NCBI RefSeq assembly: GCF_900104705.1
Contig: NZ_LT629734.1
Coordinates: 1,674,001 to 1,738,000, forward strand
Length of the DNA: 64,000 nt
From: Agrococcus carbonis
GTDB lineage: Bacteria; Actinomycetota; Actinomycetes; Actinomycetales; Microbacteriaceae
Direction of reading: 5' to 3'
Part shown: positions 50,724 through 64,000 of the stretch, piece after piece
Position numbering within the stretch: the first letter of the stretch is position 1
Layout of the letters: the number at the start of each line of letters is the position of its first letter
The notes under the pieces: generated by a model
The model's database searches: none
Seen by the model: the letters and a program-made list of their open reading frames with translations, nothing else
What the model was told of the DNA's origin: nothing
Position numbers and translations under genes: made by a program

Positions 50724-51092
50724 CTATTCCGTCGGATGTGCGCTAAGCGGCTTGAGGGCTGGGGACTCGCGATCGGCAGCCCAAAGCGACTCGTAACGGC
50801 GAGCGACGAACGGCCACAGTTCGCGCTCCGCGTCGTCAACCGACGCGATCCTCCTGACGACGGGCCCGTCGACAACAAACTCATGCAGAATCCTGCGGCC
50901 ACTGCGGTCGAGGCGCCCTTCGGGATCCAGCAGCCGGATCGACGCCATCGAGTCGATATGCGAGATCACGACTCCCCGCGGGTGATCCGAGAACGCGCGC
51001 TCATACAGCGCGAGCGGGTCGATTCCGTGTGAGGGACGGATCAGGAAGCGGAACCCCCAATCGCGTCCGCGGGTCGCCCAGAGCGTGATCAT
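50724..51092 (-). CDS. Unrecognised 122-residue partner of the GTPase
   Basis: This 122-residue protein of no family I know begins MITLWATRGRDWGFRFLI and contains DPLALYERAFSDHP, then VVISHIDSMASIRLLDPEG and a terminal RRYESLWAADRE. It is charged, mixed alpha/beta, with no signal or membrane segment. Its ATG overlaps the GTPase stop as ATGA, so the two are translationally coupled and probably interact. As the last gene of the leftward defence operon it may be the effector or the sensor of a GTPase module. Confidence 0.72.
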   Translation of the reverse strand: MITLWATRGRDWGFRFLIRPSHGIDPLALYERAFSDHPRGVVISHIDSMASIRLLDPEGRLDRSGRRILHEFVVDGPVVRRIASVDDAERELWPFVARRYESLWAADRESPALKPLSAHPTE

Positions 51093-52243
51093 CGCGTGCT
51101 CCTAGCGAGCACCTTCTCCTCTTCGGCCTTCTTGATCTGCAGGAGGAATTGCGTCGCGGCTGCCCGAGCCCCCTCGTTGCGCGCTACGGCTCGATTGTGG
51201 GCTTCAACGAGTTCGTCGTGGCCGAGCTGTGCAAGGCGCTCCACGGCTTCGAGGTCTATCAGTGTCGCGAGCAATGCGAGCTTGCCCGGGAGTCGCCCTG
51301 CAATGCGAGCACCCCAAGCGGCGAATCGAGCGACGTGCGCGGCGTTTCGCAACAGGCGGCGAGCGACTTCGTTCGGCAGCAGACGGAGCTGCGCCCAGCG
51401 GTTGCCGCGCTCGATCGGCAGTAGAGAAGCGATGGGGAGGAGCAGGTCGACACCGACCTGATCCTCGAACACGATGCGCCCCGGCTCAAACCTCGCAGAT
51501 GAGAGGAGCACGAAGTCCTCGCCTACCGACAGCGCATCGTCGGCCACTACTAGCGTTGCGATCGACTGTCGAAGCACGCTGAGCTCGTATCCGGCCTTCC
51601 GCACCACAAGGTCGGCGAAACTATCCACATCGAGATGGGGCAGGAGGTCGGCCTTCGACAGCGCGATCATCCAGATCCGTGGGAACTGCTCCAGACCTGC
51701 CGACCCGTCGAGCAGCTCGTCCTTCACGGACTCCAGGACATCCCGCATGCTCCCGAGCACCGACCGCAGGTACCGCTCCTCTTCGCCCGCGTGGTCCACC
51801 AGACGTTGCCCATCGATCAGCAGGATCGCGACATCGGAGTTGAGAAGCGCTCTGAAGTTGCTGACTCGCCGTTTCGCTTCCTCCTCGCTGCTGGCATCCT
51901 GCTCGAACCACTCGCCGGGGTAGTCGTGCCACACCAGGTGGAGAAGCGGATCTGCGCGGTGCGCGCTTGCTGCCTCCGGGCGGCGCAGCTGCACTGCGAA
52001 ATCGTAGGTGGTCGACGAGAACCTGTTGGGCTCGGGAACGTCCGCCGAGTCCTTCATGCCCAGGTAATTCTGTCGCAGCAGCGTGGCTTGGTTCGCGCGG
52101 ACGGCTCTCACGTCCAACACTCCTCTCCGTGCTCTTGCCGCTTCTAGGTAGGAGCCGAAGAAGGATGAGATGAGGACGGTCTTGCCGCTGCCGCTTTCGC
52201 CGAAGACCGCGATGTGCTGCTCGCGTGTTCTGCGCCTCGCCAT
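51089..52243 (-). CDS. TRAFAC-like P-loop GTPase, defence-island associated
   Basis: This protein of about 384 residues has an N-terminal G domain: Walker A GESGSGKT at 15-22, a G3-like D-Y-P-G at 107-110 (LVWHDYPGEWFE), a hydrophobic strand ending in D (VAILLIDGQR) and a G4-like SKAD at 196-199. This pattern resembles the prokaryotic TRAFAC GTPases predicted in conflict systems. The C-terminal 150 residues are helical, including a basic stretch near AAWGARIAGRLPGKLA. I chose ATG 52243; an upstream TTG at 52291 is less likely. It lies 112 bases after the DUF262 gene and is coupled to the 122-residue gene. Confidence 0.8.
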   Translation of the reverse strand: MARRRTREQHIAVFGESGSGKTVLISSFFGSYLEAARARRGVLDVRAVRANQATLLRQNYLGMKDSADVPEPNRFSSTTYDFAVQLRRPEAASAHRADPLLHLVWHDYPGEWFEQDASSEEEAKRRVSNFRALLNSDVAILLIDGQRLVDHAGEEERYLRSVLGSMRDVLESVKDELLDGSAGLEQFPRIWMIALSKADLLPHLDVDSFADLVVRKAGYELSVLRQSIATLVVADDALSVGEDFVLLSSARFEPGRIVFEDQVGVDLLLPIASLLPIERGNRWAQLRLLPNEVARRLLRNAAHVARFAAWGARIAGRLPGKLALLATLIDLEAVERLAQLGHDELVEAHNRAVARNEGARAAATQFLLQIKKAEEEKVLARSTR

Positions 52244-52355
52244 CGTCAGTGCCCAGCCCGTGCGGCGGCTCGCCGAGACGTTCGACTCCAAGAAGTGGCG
52301 ACGACTTCACCGCTGGGGACGTGCGTGCTGTTGACGTGCATCAACTTGTCCTTTG

Positions 52356-54206
52356 TCAGTCTTCGGTGTCGGCGATCGCCAGATCGGCGTCGATGTCTTC
52401 GATCCGATCTTCGGACTGGACGTCGGTCGCTTCGACTGGCGCCGCCCCGAGCTTGGCGCGGATGCGCTGCTCGAGCAAGGCCCGGCGCGATTCGAAGAAG
52501 GCGGGAAAGTCCTCGACCGCCGCGGGCAATGTTGCGGGGAGAGCGTTCCGATCGATGTAGGCGCCCATCTCGTCGTTGGACGCGTAGATGGCCGGCGCCC
52601 ACGCCGCCGGCGGCACGTCCGACTTGCCGACGTTCTCGGCGCCCGGAAGCAGCTGGAGATTGGGCAGGAGGTCTCGAGCGGCGATCACCTCGTCGATCTC
52701 GCTCCTGTCGATGTCCAGGGATCCCGACACGACTGCCTTCTCGACGTTCTTCTTCGTCACCAGCGACGCCGGGTAGATGTGGTCTACATGATGGACATGG
52801 CGAGTATCGACGTGGTCGAACAGGATCGCCAGCGTCGGGAACGTGCGGGGCGAGCCGAAGCGGAGCGAGAGGATGTCGTCGACGAGCGAGTCGGTGACCT
52901 CAAGCGACTTGCCTTGCTTGGAGAGTGCTGCCTCGAGTGCGGAAGTGGGGAAGCCCGATGCGCCATGCGTCCGAATCGCCTCGCGCAGATCGCGCAGGAG
53001 CGTGTCGAGGCCCGAGCCCCACACCCCTCGCACGATCAGCGAGCGCAGCACCCACGAGCGCAGCGCGGCTCGATCCTCGCGATGCTTCTCGGCGTGGCGG
53101 TAGTCATTGCCGAGGTTCCTGCGCCGCAGGTAATACGCGACCGGAATCAGGACGCTGTCTGCCGAGAGGCTGCCCTCCGACAAGCCGAAGTCGGCCAGGA
53201 GGCCCGCGGCGACTCGCAGTGACTCGCTGATCTCGTCCCACTGGGTATCCAGCAGCTCCATGTTCTCCGAGCGGAAGTTCTTGACCTTGAATCCGAAGTC
53301 GCCGATGTCGGTGAGGACGAGGCCGGCCTTGAGGATGGTGTCCTTCGAGAAGGTGAAGCCGTTTCCGGTCGAGTTGAGCTGATCCACCAGTCCATGCACG
53401 GCGGCTCTAGCATCGCGCGACTTCCATTGCGCCGTCGCGATGGAAAGCAGCAGGTCGCTGTAGGACAGCACCGTGCCGCCAGAGTTCACGCGAATGAAGA
53501 TGTCGAGCACCCTCTCGATGTCCTGATCGACCTCTTCGTAGAACTGGAGGCTCGCCTTGTTGTGGACCGCGTGCCACAGGTCGCTCAAGATGTCGGTGGC
53601 GATCTCGTCGTTGCCCACGCCGTACCGCTGGGGCAGCTTCATCAGTTGGCTCGCCTCGGCCGCCTCAAGGATGTCGCCCACCGGGAACCAACGATGCGTC
53701 GGATCGTCGGCCGCGCTCTGCAGTTGCTCGCGGGTCAGGAACGCGAGGTGGTACCGCAGGCCGGCTTCGTTCTCGGGCGCGTAGCCGAGGAGATTGATGT
53801 GCAGGGTCCGCGTCGGATACGACCACTCCTTCGTCGCCCATCCGCCCTTGTTCCGGTAGGCGTACGTTCCGCGTAGTCCGATGTTGAGGGACGTGAGGCG
53901 CTGCTGCCCATCGAGCACCGCCGTCACTGCCTGTGTGGGGTCGACATCAAGCAGTTGATTGTGGCGCTTGTCGAAGGCGCTGTAGTCCTTCATGAAGCCG
54001 TAGAACTTGAACTTCTTGACGGTTTCGGGCTCCACCCTCCACGAAAGGAAAGTGCCGACCGGGTAGCCGCGCATCATCGAGTCGAACAACTTGATCACCT
54101 GAGACGGCTTCCAGACATACTCGCGCTGGATCGCGGGAAGGATGAGTTCTCCGCGCTGGATGCGTCGCAGAGTCTCGGCCACGGTGACGGCGTCCTTGTG
54201 TGCCAT
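52356..54206 (-). CDS. DUF262-HNH single-chain GmrSD-like protein
   Basis: This 616-residue protein has an N-terminal DUF262 domain with IQREYVWK at 26-33 and the nucleotide-handling motif DGQQR at 99-103, a long helical middle, and a C-terminal HNH-type nuclease (VDHIYPAS near 474-481 followed by NLQLLPGAEN). GmrSD, BrxU and SspE share the DGQQR motif and use NTP-linked nicking or cleavage of modified DNA. GAGGA precedes the ATG. It is divergent from the cytosine methyltransferase and probably co-transcribed with the GTPase pair. A modification-dependent role is inferred, not shown. Confidence 0.87.
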   Translation of the reverse strand: MAHKDAVTVAETLRRIQRGELILPAIQREYVWKPSQVIKLFDSMMRGYPVGTFLSWRVEPETVKKFKFYGFMKDYSAFDKRHNQLLDVDPTQAVTAVLDGQQRLTSLNIGLRGTYAYRNKGGWATKEWSYPTRTLHINLLGYAPENEAGLRYHLAFLTREQLQSAADDPTHRWFPVGDILEAAEASQLMKLPQRYGVGNDEIATDILSDLWHAVHNKASLQFYEEVDQDIERVLDIFIRVNSGGTVLSYSDLLLSIATAQWKSRDARAAVHGLVDQLNSTGNGFTFSKDTILKAGLVLTDIGDFGFKVKNFRSENMELLDTQWDEISESLRVAAGLLADFGLSEGSLSADSVLIPVAYYLRRRNLGNDYRHAEKHREDRAALRSWVLRSLIVRGVWGSGLDTLLRDLREAIRTHGASGFPTSALEAALSKQGKSLEVTDSLVDDILSLRFGSPRTFPTLAILFDHVDTRHVHHVDHIYPASLVTKKNVEKAVVSGSLDIDRSEIDEVIAARDLLPNLQLLPGAENVGKSDVPPAAWAPAIYASNDEMGAYIDRNALPATLPAAVEDFPAFFESRRALLEQRIRAKLGAAPVEATDVQSEDRIEDIDADLAIADTED

Positions 54207-54346
54207 TGCGGTCCTCTTCCTCAAGGGGTCTCGGCCGACGTTACGCCATACATGTGACACAACCTCGATTCCGTCACTCTGCCTGCACTCTCGCTGCGCC
54301 GTCGGCGCAGTGTCCCGACCGCGCCTTGGTTGACACCGGGCGCGGG

Positions 54347-54352
54347 TAGCGT
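54347..54352 (+). promoter_or_regulatory. Probable -10 (TAGCGT) of a leaderless C5-methyltransferase message
   Basis: TAGCGT lies 6 bases before the GTG start, the spacing seen in several other genes of this window. A TTGACA at 54330 is only 11 bases upstream of it, too near to be its -35. Confidence 0.5.
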
Positions 54353-54358
54353 TGAAGC

Positions 54359-55543
54359 GTGGAGACGGGAGATCAACCTGAGCGGCATCCGCTGCGTTCG
54401 AGCGTCCGCCCGGGCTTCGAGTTTGGCGTCGACCCCGCCGTTCGCATCGTCGATCTCTTCGCCGGGTGCGGTGGGCTGACTCTCGGCCTCTCACAGGCCG
54501 CGGCAACGGCCGGCCGACGAGTCGAGATCGCGCTCGCCGTGGACTTCGAACCAGTCGCGACGCGGGTGTATCGCGACAACTATCCGTTCGCCGAGCGCAT
54601 CGCAACCGACTCTGTCGAGTCGTTCTTCGATGGCGAACTCGGTGCGAAACCGACGTTCACAGAACACAAGACCATGGCGGACATCGGAGCCGTCACGGTG
54701 CTGACTGGCGGCCCGCCCTGCCAGGGCCACAGCAATCTCAACAACCACACGCGGCGCGTGGATCCGAAGAACGGGCTCTATCTGCGGATGGTGCGTGCCG
54801 CTGAGATCCTCTCGCCCGAACTGATCCTCATCGAGAACGTGCCGGCCGTACTGAGGGATCGCCACGATGGCGAGGGCGTGGTGGTGCGCGCCGAACGGCA
54901 CCTCCAGGACATCGGCTACCAGGTCGGCCAAGCGGTGGTCGCTCTGGACACGATCGGAGTCGCGCAGACGCGTCGTCGCCACGTGTTGCTCGCGACCCGA
55001 GATGGCGACATCGCCCCGCGCCTTGTTCTGGAGGCGCTCGCGAAATCGGCGGATCGTCGCGACCTTCGGTGGGCGATCCACGACTTGATGGGCGCAGACG
55101 ATGGAAGCTTGCGTGACCGGGCTCCGCGTGCAAAGGCCGACAACCAGGCGCGGATGCGGTGGATGCTTGAGAACGACGCTTACGACCTGCCCAATCACCT
55201 GCGACCGAAGTGCCACCAGGACGATCACTCGTACAAGTCGATGTACGGTCGCCTCCGTTGGGAAGATCCTGCTCAGACGATCACGAGCGGCTTCGGCAGC
55301 ATCGGGCAGGGGCGCTTCATGCATCCGGAGCTGCCTCGAGCACTGACGGCGCACGAAGCCGCGCGCATTCAAGGGTTCCCCGATTACTTCGACTTCTCAG
55401 GATGCTCGACCGGCTCGGCGTTGGCGACGATGATCGGTAATGCGGTGCCCCCGCCGTTGGGTGCGGCCATTCTGCAGAGCGTGTTCTCGTTGCGGGCCCA
55501 GGCCAAGGCCGAGGCCGCATTCCTGACGCGGCGCTCGGCATAG
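54359..55543 (+). CDS. C5-cytosine DNA methyltransferase
   Basis: This 394-residue 5-methylcytosine methyltransferase has all main motifs: I DLFAGCGGL at 32-40, IV GGPPCQGHS with nucleophile Cys121, VI ENV at 159-161, VIII QTRRR at 203-207 and X GNAVPPP at 360-366. The region between VIII and IX, which chooses the target, is about 100 residues, so the recognition site is probably short. It lies 56 bases before DrmD on the same strand. It may serve the DISARM system or be paired with the divergent DUF262 nuclease. Confidence 0.94.
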   Translation: METGDQPERHPLRSSVRPGFEFGVDPAVRIVDLFAGCGGLTLGLSQAAATAGRRVEIALAVDFEPVATRVYRDNYPFAERIATDSVESFFDGELGAKPTFTEHKTMADIGAVTVLTGGPPCQGHSNLNNHTRRVDPKNGLYLRMVRAAEILSPELILIENVPAVLRDRHDGEGVVVRAERHLQDIGYQVGQAVVALDTIGVAQTRRRHVLLATRDGDIAPRLVLEALAKSADRRDLRWAIHDLMGADDGSLRDRAPRAKADNQARMRWMLENDAYDLPNHLRPKCHQDDHSYKSMYGRLRWEDPAQTITSGFGSIGQGRFMHPELPRALTAHEAARIQGFPDYFDFSGCSTGSALATMIGNAVPPPLGAAILQSVFSLRAQAKAEAAFLTRRSA

Positions 55544-55599
55544 CGCGCTCAGCGCTCCTTCATCTGGAAGACTGCTGAGAGGCTAGGAGAGGATTGCTC

Positions 55600-58500
55600 G
55601 TGAATCGCGTCGCTGCAGACGTCAACACAAAGGAGCGCGGGGCACTTGAGGTGCCGGAACCCGGCCTCCTGGTGAACGTGCGAGGCGACCGCTGGATCGT
55701 CACCGACGTCGCGGCGCAGTCACTTCCTCGCTCCAGCGCCGATGACGGCACCGCCGAACTCCAGCACGCCGTCACCCTGCAGTCGGTCGAGGAGGAGCGA
55801 TACGGGCGAGAGCTGACGGTGATCTGGGAGCTTGAGCCCGGCCGCAGCGTCGTGCGCGAGCAGGGCCTGCCCGACAGCATCCGCGCTGATCAGTTCGACG
55901 ATCCCAAGACCTTTGCCGCGTACGTGGACGCGCTCCGATGGGGGGCGCTCACGAGTGCGGATCCAAGGACGCTGCAGGCACCGTTCCGCAGCTCCGCGTC
56001 AGTCGAGGCCTACCAGCTGGAGCCGCTACGGCGAGCGATCGAGTCCCCTCGCGCGAACATGCTGCTCGCCGACGATGTCGGGCTCGGCAAGACGATCGAA
56101 GCGGGGCTGGTGATCCAGGAGCTCCTGCTGCGGCACCGCGCTCGCTCGGTGATCGTCGTCTGCCCGGCCGGGCTCGTCATCAAGTGGCAGGAGGAGTTGC
56201 GCGACAAGTTCGGCCTCCACTTCGAGATCATCAACTCCGAGACGATGAAGCAGTTCCGCCGCACCTTCGGCGTGCATGCGAACCCGTTCCGCGTCTACCC
56301 CCGCGTAATCGTCTCGATGTCCTGGCTGCCTCAGCCCCGCGCCGAGCGGATGCTGGAGGAGGTCTACGCGAGCGTGAAGGATTCCGGCACGGCTGCGCAG
56401 CGAGCGTTCGACATCCTGGTCGTCGATGAGGCGCACCACGTCGCCCCTGCGACGCCGAGTCGATCGAGCTCGACCCAGCCGCGATACGCCGTCGACAGCC
56501 AGCGCACGATCGCGGTGCGGCGTTTGGCCGAGCTGTGCGAGCATCGCCTGTTCCTCAGCGCGACGCCGCACAACGGATACACCGAGTCGTTCACGGCGCT
56601 GCTGGAGATGGTCGACCCTCAGCGCTTCGCTCGGGGCGCGGATCTCGACGAGCGTGCCCTCCGACAGGTCGCCGTCCGTCGACTCAAGCGCGACCTTCCG
56701 GAGTCCGACTTCATGCTCCGCGAGGTGCGGCAGCTCGTCTTCGACCCGAGCGACGACGAGGCCGCCGCCTATGACCGCCTGATCGCCTTCACGCGGCGCC
56801 GCAGTGCCGCCGTCAAGCAGGAGCGCGGCAAGCGCGCAGCCGAGCTGGCCACGTTGCTCCTCAAGAAGCGGTTCCTCTCGTCGCCCGTTGCGTTCGCCTC
56901 GACCGCGCAGGCGTTCCTAGATGCGCGCGGCGACGAGGACGTGGAACTGCCCGACTACGACGACGTACTCGGCGAGGAGGCGTCCGACGAGGAGGAGGGC
57001 CGCCTCGAGCAGCCTGAGTTGGAGTCTCTGCGCTCGGCGAGGCGCGCGCAGGTGGCGCTTACCGCGGAGGATCGCGAAGACCTCCAGGCCCTGATTGCAT
57101 GGGGAGAGCGTTACGAGGGCCGACCCGACTCGAAGCTGGCCGCGCTGCTCACGCTGATCAAGGGCGAGCTCCTCATCCCCGGTCTCGGTTGGGGCGACGA
57201 GCGCATCGTGATCTTCACCGAGTACGTCAGCACGCTCGAGTGGTTGCGCGAGGTGCTCGAGGCTCACGGCCTTGGTGGCGAACGGCTCGAAGTCATCGAC
57301 GGCTCGACCGACGCTGAGACCCGCGAGGAGATCCGCGCGCGGTTCACGGCCCCGCCGCGCGAGCAGCCCGTGCGCATCCTGCTCGCGACCGATGCCGCCG
57401 GCGAAGGCATCGATCTGCAGGCCCACTGCCACCGGCTCGTGAGCTTCGACATCCCCTTCAACCCCAACCGCCTTGAGCAGCGCATCGGTCGCATCGACCG
57501 TTTCGGCCAGCGGCACACCCCGCTCATCTGGCACTTGCGCGCCGACAAGCAGAACGCGTCGCCATATGCCCAGGACACCGACCTGCTCGCCCGCCTCGCG
57601 AGCAAGATCGCGAACTCCGAGCACGATGGCGTCTCGGCGAATGAGATCATCGCCCCCGACCTGCAACGTGAACTCGGCTTTGGCGGCGGCCCGGCCCGCA
57701 AGCGGAAAACGGATGCCGGTGAGCAGACGATCAACAAGGTGCTGCAGGCCGAGCACACCCTTGGGCGCGATCTGACCCGTCTTGCCGAGCGCCTCGAGAA
57801 CTCGCGCGATCGTATGCACTTGCACGAGGGCAACCTGTTGCGCGTGTTCGAGGAGGGACTTCGCATCTCCGGCCAGCCGCAGCTCACGGAGGTCGGGGAT
57901 CCTCGGGAGGAGGCACGCCTCTTCGAAGTGCCGTCAGGCCTCAGCCGAACGTGGGTCCCGGCTCTCGCCGGGCTCGACACACGGCTGGCGCGCGACGTGC
58001 TGCGGCCGATTACGTTCGATGAGCAGCGCGCACGGCAGCAGTCGGACGTCGTCTATGCGCACCTCGGGCACCCGCTCATCCAGCGCGCGGCCCGTGAGCT
58101 CCGCGGGCAGGTCTGGACCCGCACCGATCAGGTGCGAGGCATCAGTGCGGTCGTGGTCGACGGCCTCGATCAGTCGTTCGCAGCCGGCGTCGCCCGGCTC
58201 GTGCTCGTCGGCGAGGGCGGTATGCGCCTGCACGAGGAGATCTTCCTCGCGGGCACGCGCCTGCACCAGCGCCGTGAGCTCGGCATCGAGCGGTCCGAGG
58301 ATCTGCTGGTCTCCGCGCTCGACGGCTCGCGCATCTCTCAGCCCAGCAGCGAGGCGCTATCCCAGATCGCCGCGCAGTGGAATTCGGATGCGGGCGAAGC
58401 GGCGGGCCTGCGATCCCGCGTCGCTGAGGCGGTCGACCGCCGTGCCGAGAAGCTGCGCCGCGACGTCGAGACGAGCCTCGACACTCGTCGCGACGCTGAT

Positions 58501-58809
58501 CTGGCCGCAATCGACCAGATCTTCGACCGCTTCCGCGGCACGCTCCGCAGCACGATCGACAGCGCCGACGCGTCGCGTCGCGCCGGCGAGGACATGCTGT
58601 TCCAGTTGCCGGAGGAGCGCCGCCAACGCGACGAGGACCTCAGGCGAGTGCGGCGGCGCCTCGACGCGCTCGACGAGGAGCAGCAGCGCGAGCGAGGCTC
58701 GGTCGAACGCCGCTACCGCGACGTGCAAGCGCACGTCTTCGTGGCGGCACTCGTGTTCGCCCTGACCCCCGAGGACGTCGAGGAGCTGGAGGCCGCCGAT
58801 GGCCGGTAG
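55600..58809 (+). CDS. drmD: DISARM SNF2-like helicase DrmD
   Basis: This 1069-residue SNF2-family protein has Walker A GLGKT at about 161-165 (LADDVGLGKTIEAGL), the DEAH box at 276-279, a SATPHNG motif III and a second RecA domain with ATDAAGEGIDLQ and QRIGRIDRFGQ. The C-terminal third is a charged, mostly helical region. The order DrmD, DrmMI, DrmA is the class 1 DISARM order. I chose GTG 55600 because AGGAGAGG lies 7 bases upstream. It probably translocates on DNA and acts with DrmMI. Overlap with the next gene is 11 bases. Confidence 0.87.
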   Translation: MNRVAADVNTKERGALEVPEPGLLVNVRGDRWIVTDVAAQSLPRSSADDGTAELQHAVTLQSVEEERYGRELTVIWELEPGRSVVREQGLPDSIRADQFDDPKTFAAYVDALRWGALTSADPRTLQAPFRSSASVEAYQLEPLRRAIESPRANMLLADDVGLGKTIEAGLVIQELLLRHRARSVIVVCPAGLVIKWQEELRDKFGLHFEIINSETMKQFRRTFGVHANPFRVYPRVIVSMSWLPQPRAERMLEEVYASVKDSGTAAQRAFDILVVDEAHHVAPATPSRSSSTQPRYAVDSQRTIAVRRLAELCEHRLFLSATPHNGYTESFTALLEMVDPQRFARGADLDERALRQVAVRRLKRDLPESDFMLREVRQLVFDPSDDEAAAYDRLIAFTRRRSAAVKQERGKRAAELATLLLKKRFLSSPVAFASTAQAFLDARGDEDVELPDYDDVLGEEASDEEEGRLEQPELESLRSARRAQVALTAEDREDLQALIAWGERYEGRPDSKLAALLTLIKGELLIPGLGWGDERIVIFTEYVSTLEWLREVLEAHGLGGERLEVIDGSTDAETREEIRARFTAPPREQPVRILLATDAAGEGIDLQAHCHRLVSFDIPFNPNRLEQRIGRIDRFGQRHTPLIWHLRADKQNASPYAQDTDLLARLASKIANSEHDGVSANEIIAPDLQRELGFGGGPARKRKTDAGEQTINKVLQAEHTLGRDLTRLAERLENSRDRMHLHEGNLLRVFEEGLRISGQPQLTEVGDPREEARLFEVPSGLSRTWVPALAGLDTRLARDVLRPITFDEQRARQQSDVVYAHLGHPLIQRAARELRGQVWTRTDQVRGISAVVVDGLDQSFAAGVARLVLVGEGGMRLHEEIFLAGTRLHQRRELGIERSEDLLVSALDGSRISQPSSEALSQIAAQWNSDAGEAAGLRSRVAEAVDRRAEKLRRDVETSLDTRRDADLAAIDQIFDRFRGTLRSTIDSADASRRAGEDMLFQLPEERRQRDEDLRRVRRRLDALDEEQQRERGSVERRYRDVQAHVFVAALVFALTPEDVEELEAADGR

Positions 58810-61800
58810 GAGGCGCAAGCCCCAAGTCGACGCGTGGGAGTGGCTGTCCCTGATCGATGCGGACGGGCCGTTCCTCTCACGCGCTGCGTTGCAGTCGTTC
58901 TTCCCGAGCGGCCTGCCGAAGGCGCATGCCTCCGTGGACGATGTCAACGAGACGTTCGTCGACGAGTTCAGCCGCTGGTCGTCGATGTGGACGGCCGAGT
59001 CGGCGACCTACGCCAAAGCACGCGATCGGTGGGTCGAGGTCGTGCTGCGAACCCTGCTCGACTGGTCCGACGAGCTCGAACTCGCCCCCGCTGGCTTCTC
59101 GGCGAACTCGCCGAGCGGTGCGGTCACGATCGAACCGTTCGCGGCGCTCGCTGGCGAGGGGGACGCCCCGGCCGCGCTCGTCACGCTGGTCGATCGCATC
59201 GCGGACCTTCGTGCGGTGGGGACTGACGGCTGGTCGGCGAGCGCGATTGATCGGATGTCCGTGCTCCTGCGCGAGACGGGGGTGCCGATCGGCATCGTCA
59301 CCGACGGACGCTGGTGGGGCCTTGTGTCCGCATCCAAGGACGTCACTACCGCGAGCGGCGTGTGGGACGCCCTGCTGTGGCGCGAGGAGCGCCCCAGTCG
59401 TGACGCGTTCCTGGCGCTCGCGAGCTTCACATCGCTCGCCGGTGGCAAGGCCGAGCAGCGCCTTCCCGCTCTGTTCGCCGAGTCGGTCGCAAGCGCCGAA
59501 CAGATCACGGAGGCTCTGGGAGACCAGGTGCGTCGCGCGGTGGAGCTCGTGCTGCAATCGATGTCCGACACGCACCTGCGCGCCGTAGCCCGGGGAGAGG
59601 CTTCGCCGTTGCCCGATGATCCTCGGGCGGTCTACGAGGGCGCGGTCACGACACTCATGCGCATCGTGTTCATCCTGTTCGCTGAGGAGCGGGGGCTGCT
59701 GCCCGAGCACGATCTCTATCGCTCGTCATACGCGATCGCGGGACTCCGCGGGCAACTGCAGCGCGAGGCGACCGCGACCTCTGCCGAGGCACTCGACCAC
59801 TCTTGGGAAGCCTGGCATCGGCTGCTCGCCGCGAGCAACGCCGTCTTCGGTGGTGCAAGCTTCGAGGACATGCGGATGCCGGCCTACGGCGGCTCGTTGT
59901 TCGATCCCGAGCGCTTTCCTTGGCTGCAGGCTACGGATGCGCAGGGCCGCCTCCGGGTCCGACTCACCGACAGGGCCATGCTCGCTGTGCTCCGCGCCGT
60001 CCAGACCATCGAGGACGGAGCGATGCAGCTGTCGTTCCGCGATCTGGACGTCGAGCAGATTGGCTACGTGTACGAGGGGCTGCTCGGCTACTCGGCCGAG
60101 TACGCCAGCGAGCTCGTGGTCGGCCTGCAGGGCAAGCCAGGCTTCGAGCCGGAAGTCCCGCTGGTCGAGCTTGAGCAGCTTGCGTCGGCCGCGGCTTCCT
60201 CCAAGCAGTTCGGGGACGCGCTCGTCGCGCACCTGAAGAAGACCCAGGAGCACGCGAAGCCCCGAACCGCTGGGCAAATCGCGAAGGTCTACGGCGCGGC
60301 GGACCTCGACGCCGCCGCCGACGCTCGGACTCGACTGCGCCACGCCCTGCTCGGCGATGACGAGCTCGCTGGCAGACTCGAGCGATTCCACGCGCTCATC
60401 CGCGACGACCTGCGCGGTTTTCCCTACGTCGTGCCCGCGGGCGGCCTCGTGATGACCGAGTCGGCGCAGCGCGCCAACACCGGCACCCACTACACGCCTC
60501 GCTCGCTCGCCGAAGAGGTGGTGCTGCAGGCTCTGGAGCCGCTCGTCTACTCGCCCGGCCCGCTCGACGTCGAGGACAGCACGCAGTGGAAGCTGAAGTC
60601 GTCGGCCGAGATTCTCGATCTCAGGGTGGCCGACATCGCCGCCGGCTCGGGCGCCTTCCTCGTCGCTGCGGCTCGCTATCTGGCCGACCGCGTGATCGAG
60701 GCGCGTAGCGCCGAGGGCGTGCCCATCCGCGGGGAGAATCCGAAGCGCTTTGCGATCCGCGAAGTCGTCGCTCGCTGCCTCTACGGCGCCGACATCAACG
60801 GCATGGCCGTCGAGATGTGCAAGCTCTCCCTCTGGCTCATCTCGATGGATCCGGGCAAGCCGTTCTCGTTCGTCGACGATCGCGTCTTCCACGGTAACTC
60901 CCTGCTTGGCGTCACCACCGAGGCGCAGCTCAAAGCTCAGCACATCTCCCCAACAGTCTCGGTAAAGCGGCAACTAGACGGCTTCGATGTCGACAAGGAC
61001 CTCAAGGACGCTGCTCGGCTCCGGCGTGAACTTTCGTCCGGCCAGGCTGACGACGCAGATCGCATGCGCTCGACCCGCGCCAAGCGCGCCCTGCTCGCGC
61101 AGGCGAAGCAGGTCACCGCGAAGCTTCGCGATATCGGAGACGGCGTCATCGCCGCGGCACTACGTGAGGGGGGAAAGCCCGGTCGTAAGCTCGATGATCG
61201 GTACGACGATCTCGCACAAGCCCTCCGCGATGCTTACCCGGCGGACGGCTCGAAGGGCGACCGCAGTCAGCTCGTAGCATCTATCGAAGCGGGTCTCACC
61301 GCGACGGTCGACTCAATGGAAGCCCGCTGGAAGCCGCTGCATTGGATTATCGAGGCACCCGATGTCATCGTCGGCAACGGCGGTTTCGACGCCGTAGTGG
61401 GGAATCCACCCTTCTTGGGAGGGCAGAAGATCACCGGTGCCGTCGGCAAGAACGTTCGCGACATGATAATCAATGTTGTCGCAGGAGGGACTCCTGGAAG
61501 CGCTGATCTGGTCGCGTACTTCCTCTTGCGCGCAGCACAGTTGATGCGCACCGACGGCCGACTCGGAATCATTGCTACGAACACGCTCGCTCAGGGCGCA
61601 ACGCGGCAAGTCGGCTTGGTTCGTCTAATCAACGATGGCTTTGAGATCGACGCCGCAGTGCAGAGTCGCCCGTGGCCAGCGCGATCAGCGGGTGTGTCGT
61701 TCGCGGCTGTTTGGGGGTCATTCGGCAGGGCGACTCTAGTTCGCGTCGCAGACGGCACCGCCTGCGAGAGAATCAACTCATTGCTTGAGCCGGAGGGGCG

Positions 61801-62812
61801 GGTCGAGGGCGACCCGGCTCGTCTGCAGGAGAATGCTGCGCTCGGATTCCAGGGGTTCAATATCCTCGGCAAAGGCTTCATTTTGCGTCCCGCCGAAGCG
61901 CAGATCTTACTCTTCGAGGATCCCTGCAACGAAGAGGTAGTCAAGCCGTACGTGGGAGGCGGCGCGCTGAATGAGTCCATGCTGTGGTTGGGCAAGGAAT
62001 ACGCAATCAACTTTGGAACTATGAGTCGCTCGGAGGCGGAGAGGTACCGCGGGCCTTTCCGAATCGTCGAAGAGCGCGTTCTGCCTCAGCGGTTGCAAGT
62101 GACATATAGCCGTCATGCGTACGACAACTGGTGGCAATACGAGAAGACGCGGCCAGCCATGGTGAGGGCGATTACTCAGCTGCAGACTGTGTTCGTACTC
62201 GCGCTAACTAGCAACACCGCGATGCCGACAATCGGGCCGTCCAGCGTGGTGTACGATCACAGCGTAGCGGTGTTCGCCTCAGAGGACTGGGCTATTCACG
62301 GTGTGCTGTCTTCCAATATCCACAACGTTTGGGTGACGCGCTATAGCTCCACCCTGGGCACTGGATTGCGATATCTGTTGCGGGAGGGTTTCGAAACTTT
62401 CCCGAGACCCGAGCCCACCGCACGATTGCGGGAGGCGGCTGTGGCTTTGGAGCAAGAGCGTGCGACCCGGCTCCTGAAGAGGGGCGTCGGTCTTACCGAG
62501 GGCTACGGTCTCGTGCACGATTCGAGCCATGATGACGCAGATGTCCGGGAGATCCGGCAGCTGCATACGCGATTGGACGAGGAGGTCATGGCGGCGTACG
62601 GCTGGACCGACATTTCGCTTGACCATGGCTTCCACACGTATCGCCAGTTGCAGCGGTGGACAGTAAGCCCTGCCGCACGCATCGAGATCCTCGACCGTCT
62701 GCTTGAGGAGAACCACCGGCGCGCGGCGATCGAGACGCAGTCCGCTCCGAAGAGAGCGAAGCGCGGCAAGACCTTTGAGGAGTCCGAGAAGCCCGAAGGA
62801 GCTATGTTCTGA
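58799..62812 (+). CDS. drmMI: DISARM N6-adenine methyltransferase DrmMI
   Basis: This 1337-residue adenine methyltransferase has the SAM-binding motif I VADIAAGSGAFL at 610-621 and the catalytic NPPF at 869-872. A long insertion (about 250 residues, basic and helical) separates the motifs, and a large C-terminal target-recognition part follows. Length and neighbours match DrmMI, not PglX. From about 61,430 to 62,650 the GC content falls to near 53 percent in lines I counted, against about 68 percent before, suggesting that the recognition domain was exchanged. The stop overlaps the DrmA start as TGATG. Confidence 0.86.
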   Translation: MAGRRRKPQVDAWEWLSLIDADGPFLSRAALQSFFPSGLPKAHASVDDVNETFVDEFSRWSSMWTAESATYAKARDRWVEVVLRTLLDWSDELELAPAGFSANSPSGAVTIEPFAALAGEGDAPAALVTLVDRIADLRAVGTDGWSASAIDRMSVLLRETGVPIGIVTDGRWWGLVSASKDVTTASGVWDALLWREERPSRDAFLALASFTSLAGGKAEQRLPALFAESVASAEQITEALGDQVRRAVELVLQSMSDTHLRAVARGEASPLPDDPRAVYEGAVTTLMRIVFILFAEERGLLPEHDLYRSSYAIAGLRGQLQREATATSAEALDHSWEAWHRLLAASNAVFGGASFEDMRMPAYGGSLFDPERFPWLQATDAQGRLRVRLTDRAMLAVLRAVQTIEDGAMQLSFRDLDVEQIGYVYEGLLGYSAEYASELVVGLQGKPGFEPEVPLVELEQLASAAASSKQFGDALVAHLKKTQEHAKPRTAGQIAKVYGAADLDAAADARTRLRHALLGDDELAGRLERFHALIRDDLRGFPYVVPAGGLVMTESAQRANTGTHYTPRSLAEEVVLQALEPLVYSPGPLDVEDSTQWKLKSSAEILDLRVADIAAGSGAFLVAAARYLADRVIEARSAEGVPIRGENPKRFAIREVVARCLYGADINGMAVEMCKLSLWLISMDPGKPFSFVDDRVFHGNSLLGVTTEAQLKAQHISPTVSVKRQLDGFDVDKDLKDAARLRRELSSGQADDADRMRSTRAKRALLAQAKQVTAKLRDIGDGVIAAALREGGKPGRKLDDRYDDLAQALRDAYPADGSKGDRSQLVASIEAGLTATVDSMEARWKPLHWIIEAPDVIVGNGGFDAVVGNPPFLGGQKITGAVGKNVRDMIINVVAGGTPGSADLVAYFLLRAAQLMRTDGRLGIIATNTLAQGATRQVGLVRLINDGFEIDAAVQSRPWPARSAGVSFAAVWGSFGRATLVRVADGTACERINSLLEPEGRVEGDPARLQENAALGFQGFNILGKGFILRPAEAQILLFEDPCNEEVVKPYVGGGALNESMLWLGKEYAINFGTMSRSEAERYRGPFRIVEERVLPQRLQVTYSRHAYDNWWQYEKTRPAMVRAITQLQTVFVLALTSNTAMPTIGPSSVVYDHSVAVFASEDWAIHGVLSSNIHNVWVTRYSSTLGTGLRYLLREGFETFPRPEPTARLREAAVALEQERATRLLKRGVGLTEGYGLVHDSSHDDADVREIRQLHTRLDEEVMAAYGWTDISLDHGFHTYRQLQRWTVSPAARIEILDRLLEENHRRAAIETQSAPKRAKRGKTFEESEKPEGAMF

Positions 62813-64000
62813 TGACCGACGCATCCGTCGTCTCGTCCGCGCAGGTGCGCGGAGAGCTGCTCGATCTGCTCCGTCGTGATCTTGTCGGGCCGTGGGACGG
62901 ACCGACCGAGGAGATCATCGGCACGCCCCGTGCACGCTATCTGGCAGGCGCGCTAGCGCCGATCTCGCTGCTCGACGGGCAAGCGTCTTCGCCGGTGTCG
63001 TCGGGTGAACCGGCGAAGACGCTCGATGCGGTGCGAGGAGACGATGAGACGGCCGTCGTCGATCTGTCGAATGCGCACGAAACCGCGGGCGTGCCGGTCG
63101 ACGAAGACGAGTCGATCGGTGAGGCGTCGCCCTCTGAGCCCGACGAGGACCGCGGCCCCGAGTCGAAGATCATCGCTCCGTCGTCGATGGGGCTCCGATT
63201 TCAGGTCGCAGCAAACACAAGGGTGTTGCGTTTCACCGGCCGATGGGGACGGTACGCCGGCCGTCGCGAGGTCGACCCCGACTCGGGCCGCACGAGGACG
63301 ATCTACGACCGAACGCCATTCGAGAAGCCCGTCAACATCGATCTCACGAGCATCCCGGGTGGTGGATCGCACCGAACCGATCTTGGCGACGACGTGGCGA
63401 TCTCGGTCGAGGTCTTCGACTACGAGGGCTGTCGCGTGGTCGAAGCGGCGCTGCTCAACACGGCGGTCACGGGTCGCGAATTGCCGCCGAAGCTCTGGCT
63501 GTTTCAGGCCGAGCTCGAAGTCACGGCTCCAGATGGGGCAGCTGTCTTCCTGCCCGCGCGAGACGCGCTCGCGGATGACCGCGGCTCACGCGACGGGGAA
63601 GTCCGGCGGCTCGACCTCCTTTACCGGGACAAGCTCGAGTTCGCGATCGGTCGCACTGCCTCTGTCGCGTGGGACGAAGCGACTGATGACTCGCGACGCG
63701 CGACTGCAGTGCGTACGACTTGGTTGCCGACCGCGGAGGTGCCGCAGACTCGTGCTCCCGAGGTACCGGGCGCGGTGCTCAGCATGCGCGCGCTCATGGA
63801 GTCCAAGCCGGCCGAGCTGCGGGCTGGGCTGCAGCCGCTCGTCGATGCCTACGGTGACTGGATCGAGAAGCAGGCCGTCAAGAACGCGAAGCTCCCGGAT
63901 CACCTCCAGGGCGAGGGAAGCCTGGGGCTAGAGGATGCCAATCGAGCGCTCAAGCGGCTGAAGCTCGGACTCGACCTTCTCGCGTCGGACGAACAGGCGC
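62812..64000 (+). CDS. drmA: DISARM helicase DrmA, N-terminal part
   Basis: An open frame runs from ATG 62812 off the right edge (396 codons). It begins MTDASVVSSAQVRGELLDLL and has the DrmA-like N-terminal block DLVGPWDG, PRARYLAGALAPI, then SSMGLRFQV, LWLFQAELEVTA and TWLPTAEVPQTRAPEVPGA. The first 120 residues include an acidic, disordered part. The helicase motifs should lie beyond the edge. It is coupled to DrmMI by a TGATG overlap. DrmB and DrmC are expected next but cannot be seen. Confidence 0.8.
   Translation, partial: MTDASVVSSAQVRGELLDLLRRDLVGPWDGPTEEIIGTPRARYLAGALAPISLLDGQASSPVSSGEPAKTLDAVRGDDETAVVDLSNAHETAGVPVDEDESIGEASPSEPDEDRGPESKIIAPSSMGLRFQVAANTRVLRFTGRWGRYAGRREVDPDSGRTRTIYDRTPFEKPVNIDLTSIPGGGSHRTDLGDDVAISVEVFDYEGCRVVEAALLNTAVTGRELPPKLWLFQAELEVTAPDGAAVFLPARDALADDRGSRDGEVRRLDLLYRDKLEFAIGRTASVAWDEATDDSRRATAVRTTWLPTAEVPQTRAPEVPGAVLSMRALMESKPAELRAGLQPLVDAYGDWIEKQAVKNAKLPDHLQGEGSLGLEDANRALKRLKLGLDLLASDEQA

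Follow-up and report, generated by a model that had tools for sequence, protein, structure and literature searches.

How DISARM (defence island system associated with restriction-modification) tells host DNA from phage DNA with little sequence specificity is an open question, and what a second methyltransferase does for the system is likewise unsettled. The system is treated in a review (PMC12926258). The class 1 DISARM operon of Serratia sp. SCBI has both a C5-cytosine and an N6-adenine methyltransferase (Bravo et al., 2022, PMC9142583); according to the same source, the ATPase activity of DrmAB rises with unmethylated DNA and drops with DNA that carries 5-methylcytosine (5mC), and residue V1296 of the Serratia DrmA is proposed as the sensor (PMC9142583). 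For class 1 DrmA an N-terminal EVE-like reader of modified bases is predicted (Bell et al., 2025, PMC12458937). Also described are a 'DISARM-RM hybrid cluster' (RM, restriction-modification) in Fervidacidithiobacillus caldus megaplasmids (PMC12375680) and a DISARM-like system with an odd methylation motif in Cutibacterium acnes (PMC7365801). Here we describe a class 1 DISARM locus at the right end of a 64,000-nucleotide stretch of the Agrococcus carbonis genome (contig NZ_LT629734.1; G000:C1:1674001-1738000), which is called the window below. It lies inside a single-contig genome of 2.77 Mb, and reading past its right end was possible.

The reading that we prefer, with a probability of roughly 0.7, is that this complete class 1 DISARM is headed by a dedicated C5-cytosine DNA methyltransferase, MT5, which belongs to the system, and that in the lineage of the locus an unrelated C5 family (family B) was probably displaced by the family of MT5 (family A). 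The original prediction, made from the window alone, had proposed a class 1 locus with an added cytosine methyltransferase, and all of its gene coordinates were confirmed in the sequence.

By gene content the locus is a complete class 1 DISARM in the order drmD-drmMI-drmA-drmB-drmC. The gene for the SNF2-like helicase, drmD (55600-58809, plus strand), scored 1186 bits with NCBIfam NF038317 (cut-off 610) and 1211 bits with the PADLOC DrmD model, and its product has the motifs GLGKT, DEAH and QRIGR intact. Its open reading frame (ORF) opens at TTG 55594; GTG 55600, preceded by the Shine-Dalgarno-like AGGAGAGG, appears to be the likelier start. The PglX/MmeI-like N6-adenine methyltransferase gene drmMI (58799-62812, plus strand) overlaps drmD by 11 bp and encodes 1337 aa. 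DrmMI was matched by PADLOC over residues 8-1324 (1513 bits), carries the NPPF motif and has Pfam matches to Eco57I, MmeI_Mtase and, just below the cut-off, MmeI_TRD; no NCBIfam model exceeded its cut-off for this protein. The ATG of the helicase gene drmA, at 62812, overlaps the last base of drmMI, and the contiguous, overlapping class 1 order of these genes is thus as originally predicted. The first 396 codons of drmA are in the window (62812-64000, plus strand), and the whole gene (L003:812-4507) encodes 1231 aa. Its assignment to DrmA was borne out by the NCBIfam model DrmAS (1295 bits, cut-off 950). The two genes expected further to the right were found past the window end: drmB (L003:4504-6588; NCBIfam 646 bits, cut-off 240), likely with a GTG start, overlaps the drmA stop, and drmC (L003:6590-7297) matches NCBIfam DrmC_I (141.5 bits, cut-off 133). 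The motifs searched for were present in DrmD, DrmMI and DrmC.

Two PADLOC models gave matches at odds with their labels: the nominal DrmA model PDLC02572 hits almost the full length of DrmD (881 bits), and the nominal DrmD model PDLC02626 hits the C-terminus of DrmMI (78 bits). The labels of the two models are probably mixed up.

MT5 (54359-55543, plus strand, 394 aa) ends 56 bp before the drmD GTG at 55600, on the same strand, and as predicted it is a complete enzyme: it matches Pfam DNA_methylase (PF00145, 1.7e-46) and has motifs I, IV (PCQ), VI (ENV), VIII, IX and X all intact. Its GTG start is supported by the relatives L005 and L018, which align from the first residue. The best PADLOC model for MT5 is DruM2 (PDLC00033, 349 bits, residues 17-377 of 394), and the closest solved structures are DNMT1 catalytic domains (117 bits). 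A public record, P0002 (334 aa), covers 85% of MT5 at 100% identity; its start annotation is probably wrong, since motif I is lost at that start. The sequence TAGCGT sits 6 bp before the MT5 GTG and would presumably fit a leaderless start. A promoter scan of 54100-55800 returned no sigma-70-like site, which carries little weight because the models cover actinobacterial promoters poorly, and the same interval holds two terminator-like sites, both on the minus strand.

In its pair of methyltransferase genes, one for N6-methyladenine (6mA) and one for 5mC, the window resembles Serratia sp. SCBI when the two are compared by content. The original statement that class 1 loci use an adenine enzyme only is therefore out of date, the Serratia operon having both (PMC9142583). 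The Serratia DrmA is homologous to residues 15-1203 of the window DrmA, and the base-contact valine V1296 is kept as V1195.

The association of MT5 with drmD is conserved. A DrmD scan of genome contigs gave 23 loci; one (L026) is a weak partial match and the 22 others were used. The seven loci whose DrmD is 76-80% identical to that of the window come from three Demequina, two Microbacterium, one Homoserinibacter and one Agromyces, and all seven carry an MT5 homolog (63-67% identity) directly before drmD on the same strand. The adjacency that the prediction had singled out for checking is thus present throughout the close relatives. In all seven, 35-59 bp separate the MT5 stop from the start of drmD as predicted by alignment, compared with 56 bp in the window. 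Upstream of MT5 there is little in common: among the eight loci, only 5 of the 28 pairs share any protein (E <= 1e-8, up to 8.9 kb), and no upstream protein of the window was common to any of the seven relatives at the same threshold (3.8 kb searched in L007, approximately 8.7 kb in the others). As the upstream neighbours are not conserved, MT5 is the start of the conserved block. Chance linkage of a C5 gene and drmD is unlikely. At the density of PF00145 matches in the rest of the sampled class genomes with DrmD (29 genomes, approximately 192 Mb by rounded sizes, 56 match rows, several of them fragments of one gene), a drmD would be expected to have a C5 match at 15 kb or less in <1% of cases.

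These observations bear on the possibility that MT5 is an orphan methyltransferase or part of a type II modification system, independent of the DISARM beside it. Such a gene would not be out of place here, as the region is a defence island on both sides, family A genes are also found without DISARM close by, and the host has another C5 gene at C1:1322008, approximately 406 kb from MT5. Against this stand the same strand, slot and spacing in every one of the seven relatives despite differing upstream genes, and the grouping of all family A loci in a single DrmD clade. In addition, no cognate restriction endonuclease was recognised among the scanned left neighbours of MT5, the immediate one being a HEC-05/GmrSD_N protein. 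We consider an orphan or type II origin improbable.

A C5 gene is also found in DISARM loci that lack family A. When PF00145 was searched in 25 genomes (the source genomes of the 22 loci together with G000, G029 and G077), the initial idea that the C5 gene is confined to the family A clade had to be rejected: loci of the sister group have family B. Family B genes lie 5' of drmD in L009, L010, L024, L019 and G029 and 3' of drmB/drmC in L012, L013, L015, L017, L020 and L022, and they always share the strand of the operon. The hosts of the 5' group are Arthrobacter, Subtercola, G029 and a Pseudonocardiaceae metagenome-assembled genome (MAG), and those of the 3' group Nocardioides, Dietzia, Saccharomonospora and a Propionibacteriales MAG. 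Counting both families, the C5 gene is linked in 17 of the 22 loci. L021, L023 and G077 gave no PF00145 match, and L025 had matches on other contigs only. The best PADLOC model for family B was MTase_II (PDLC03324, 301-471 bits) in all five proteins scanned, neither DrmMII nor DruM2 being best. Families A and B align over part of the core only, at 25-32% identity, and in family B the motif IV region has PCT, or else PCQ within a different sequence context. The two families are unrelated.

The placement of the two families was followed in a DrmD tree of 65 rows, a quick tree under one simple model, which omits L112 (= L015), L113 (= L013), the weak L026, L028 (the window itself) and a second DrmD of G296 (locus not given). 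In this tree the eight family A loci form one clade (Shimodaira-Hasegawa-like approximate likelihood ratio test, SH-aLRT, 100), which is sister (100) to four loci having family B in the same 5' slot. The next branches are eight loci of the 3' group (six with linked genes; those of L014 and L016 lie on other contigs) and L019. Together these loci make up a clade of 21, whose support of 91 is below the starred level. A C5 gene occurs in all 21 members, 19 times linked on the drmD contig and twice on another contig. By enzyme, 13 of the loci have family B, either 5' or 3', and eight have family A, always 5' and in one clade. In the tree of family B itself, one branch (95/96) separates the five 5' rows from the rest, and the DrmD tree agrees with this split for four of the five. 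The simplest history is that family B is ancestral in this DrmD lineage and that family A probably supplanted it in the slot next to drmD. The family B class 1 loci of the same DrmD clade are thus like the window in carrying a C5 gene, the 5' group in the very same slot, and differ from it in the enzyme family. The exchange of the family with retention of the function suggests that it is the 5mC activity, not a particular protein, that matters.

A number of results weigh against this reading or narrow it. The direction from family B to family A is parsimony on the quick tree just described. L019 is a broken locus, its DrmD being matched over 18-738 only and no drmMI or drmB match reaching over 60 bits. 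The family B genes of L014 and L016 lie on other contigs and may not be linked to DISARM; that of L016, on a separate 6.2 kb contig, is divergent in the tree and may be outside its DISARM. When 18 further family A proteins, taken without gene context, were added to a tree, 14 of them fell among the eight DISARM-linked rows, and these eight rows were no longer one clade. Outside the 21-locus clade linked C5 genes are rare. Across 394 genomes sampled evenly from the class, 30 have DrmD over the cut-off, that of the window among them. Of the 29 others, nine have no PF00145 match, ten have matches on other contigs only, and eight have a match on the drmD contig more than 15 kb away (nearest in G228, approximately 24 kb), counts in which fragmented assemblies could hide some links. 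Only two have a C5 gene within 15 kb, G397 (= L015) and G459 (= L013 by coordinates), and both are already in the clade. DrmD coverage of at least 80% was found in 26 plasmid records, and among the 13 examined (with flanks of 15 kb, or as far as the record extended) ten have no annotated C5 gene near DISARM. Since most class 1 loci have no linked C5 gene, a C5 partner is optional for class 1 DISARM in general and regular in one lineage. Finally, the window DrmA lacks any equivalent of residues 1-137 of the Serratia protein, and for this reason the published sensing model may not transfer whole. The stretch that is lacking may correspond to the predicted EVE-like domain.

The three plasmid records with an annotated C5 gene near DISARM are those of Nocardioides JS614, Deinococcus AJ005 and Microvirga terrae. 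The class 1 cores of Deinococcus sp. AJ005 p96k and Microvirga terrae pR24_2 are like that of the window; the C5 gene lies after drmC in the former and before drmD in the latter. Both enzymes are of the DrmMII type (294 and 288 bits, respectively), both loci have a vsr gene, and MT5 is approximately 29-32% identical to the two enzymes. In pR24_2 (L148:13460-18072) the C5 methyltransferase gene, vsr and drmD overlap in one class 1 operon. The C5 role in class 1 DISARM is thus filled by at least three enzyme types.

The gene defining class 2 DISARM is drmE. In the original prediction the coexistence of adenine and cytosine enzymes suggested a hybrid of class 1 and class 2, in which MT5 would be a DrmMII captured by a class 1 locus. 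This is unsupported, because MT5 is not of the DrmMII type (112 bits with the best DrmMII model vs 349 bits with DruM2) and no drmE was found: none of the eight genes scanned with NCBIfam (six of the operon, two to its left) matched it, and none appeared among the PADLOC matches shown. The loci that do have a DrmMII-type enzyme in a class 1 setting, Deinococcus p96k and Microvirga pR24_2, look different from the window in having vsr, which was not seen among the scanned neighbours of MT5. What speaks for a captured class 2 enzyme is G229, in which a class 2-like DISARM (L164:8983-18662) is headed by a fusion of Vsr (TIGR00632 over the cut-off) with a family A relative of 49% identity. This DISARM is divergent, with a DrmE-family match of 23 bits and DrmA, DrmB and DrmC at 337, 50 and 65 bits, all under the NCBIfam cut-offs, and an equally close relative (50%) sits in a Druantia II-like operon. 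A class 1/class 2 hybrid is accordingly a doubtful explanation, to which we give little credence.

That relative is the one plasmid-record member of family A at E <= 1e-40 and belongs to Rubrobacter marinus. Its operon has DruE2 (1917 bits), a partial DruF2 (60 bits) and DruK (92 bits). Druantia II requires DruM and DruG according to PADLOC (PMC8565338). No DruG was recognised in the operon of Rubrobacter, and we therefore call it only Druantia II-like. The window shares with Druantia type II the affinity of MT5 to DruM2, but it has DISARM helicases instead of DruE2, of which its own genome gave no match at E <= 1e-150. Druantia as a direct donor in Actinomycetes is unsupported, as none of the 16 DruE2 genomes is among the four family A genomes (394 searched for each, apparently the same set).

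Those four are all of the 394 class genomes with family A at E <= 1e-60, and 398 genomes of the family gave two at the same threshold, that of the window and one matching the L006 coordinates, both linked to DISARM. In G132 the family A gene adjoins a gene with weak DGQHR/DndB matches. In G446 a family A ORF and a family B-like C5 ORF overlap in tandem (L165:7996-10391, minus strand; two ORFs scanned), and a DrmD-like helicase below the cut-off lies approximately 30 kb from this pair.

MT5 might also be a phage-derived counter-defence or regulatory enzyme that shields the locus or the island instead of marking self. Phage C5 methyltransferases with approximately 27-32% identity to MT5 do exist (15 rows of 19 records). 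The best database matches are much closer to MT5 than these, and a viral contig scan, which with its exact-peptide patterns reaches close relatives only, found no relative. A viral origin was rejected on these grounds, and we regard a shielding enzyme of phage descent as very unlikely.

If MT5 is indeed a dedicated part of the DISARM, the system would work as follows. DrmMI would put 6mA and MT5 would put 5mC on the host chromosome, each at its own sites, and both marks would count as 'self'. DrmAB, helped by DrmD, would load on incoming unmarked DNA and block or destroy it, and DrmC would act as an accessory nuclease. The 5mC function would be kept in the DrmD lineage, with the enzyme itself exchangeable. 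What the sequences show is gene content and order, intact motifs, a conserved slot and spacing, two unrelated enzyme families and their tree placement; the methylation activities of MT5 and DrmMI, their sites and their role in self-recognition are inferred. The original suggestion of a doubly protected system is plausible to this extent, being backed by the conserved adjacency; its novelty is gone with the Serratia precedent (PMC9142583).

The two methyltransferases do not vary alike among the eight family A loci. Mean pairwise identity in DrmMI is 66% over the whole protein and 71-97% in residues 551-800, and it falls to 31-46% in residues 951-1250, which hold the MmeI_TRD match. As this region is hypervariable, the 6mA specificity probably differs among the loci. 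In MT5, residues 221-300 have 46-82% identity vs 64% overall, and the 5mC specificity may be steadier than that of 6mA, a contrast that is suggestive only. A bolder proposal, which we put forward only tentatively, is that 5mC is an obligatory second self-signal in one actinobacterial DISARM lineage, supplied by unrelated C5 families, and that the A-type enzyme is traded among YprA-helicase defences. If so, 6mA would be a fast-changing password and 5mC a steadier one, the two marks dividing the work, and the A-type enzyme would be a module exchanged between DISARM and Druantia. Loci with family A, loci with family B and relatives with no C5 gene offer a natural comparison for asking which mark protects the host.

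Genes for dual 6mA and 5mC methylation in class 1 DISARM are thus already known, and it is the swap of C5 families in one slot that looks new. In the accessible text of open-licence PubMed Central literature, neither an exchange of C5 families at a DISARM slot nor a DruM2-type enzyme in DISARM was found described. Annotation pipelines that accept DrmMII alone as the cytosine enzyme of DISARM would miss MT5.

The region around MT5 and DISARM is a defence island. To the left lie, on the minus strand, a gene for a HEC-05/GmrSD_N (DUF262-type) protein (52356-54605; PADLOC 685 bits) and beside it one for a DO-GTPase2-domain protein (51089-52291). To the right of drmC, past the window end and also on the minus strand, are a type III-A retron-like reverse transcriptase gene (L003:8849-10042, 399 bits) and PRTase_III-A (L003:10258-11604, 229 bits). 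Coupling of MT5 to the HEC-05/GmrSD-type gene was considered and rejected, as no protein encoded upstream of MT5 in the window recurs upstream in any of the seven relatives (E <= 1e-8). As called, the ORF of HEC-05 runs over the MT5 start; its true start is probably further in, because the profile match begins only at residue 129. Between 54 kb and the right end of the window the G+C content is 64-70%, compared with 67-76% over the first 50 kb.

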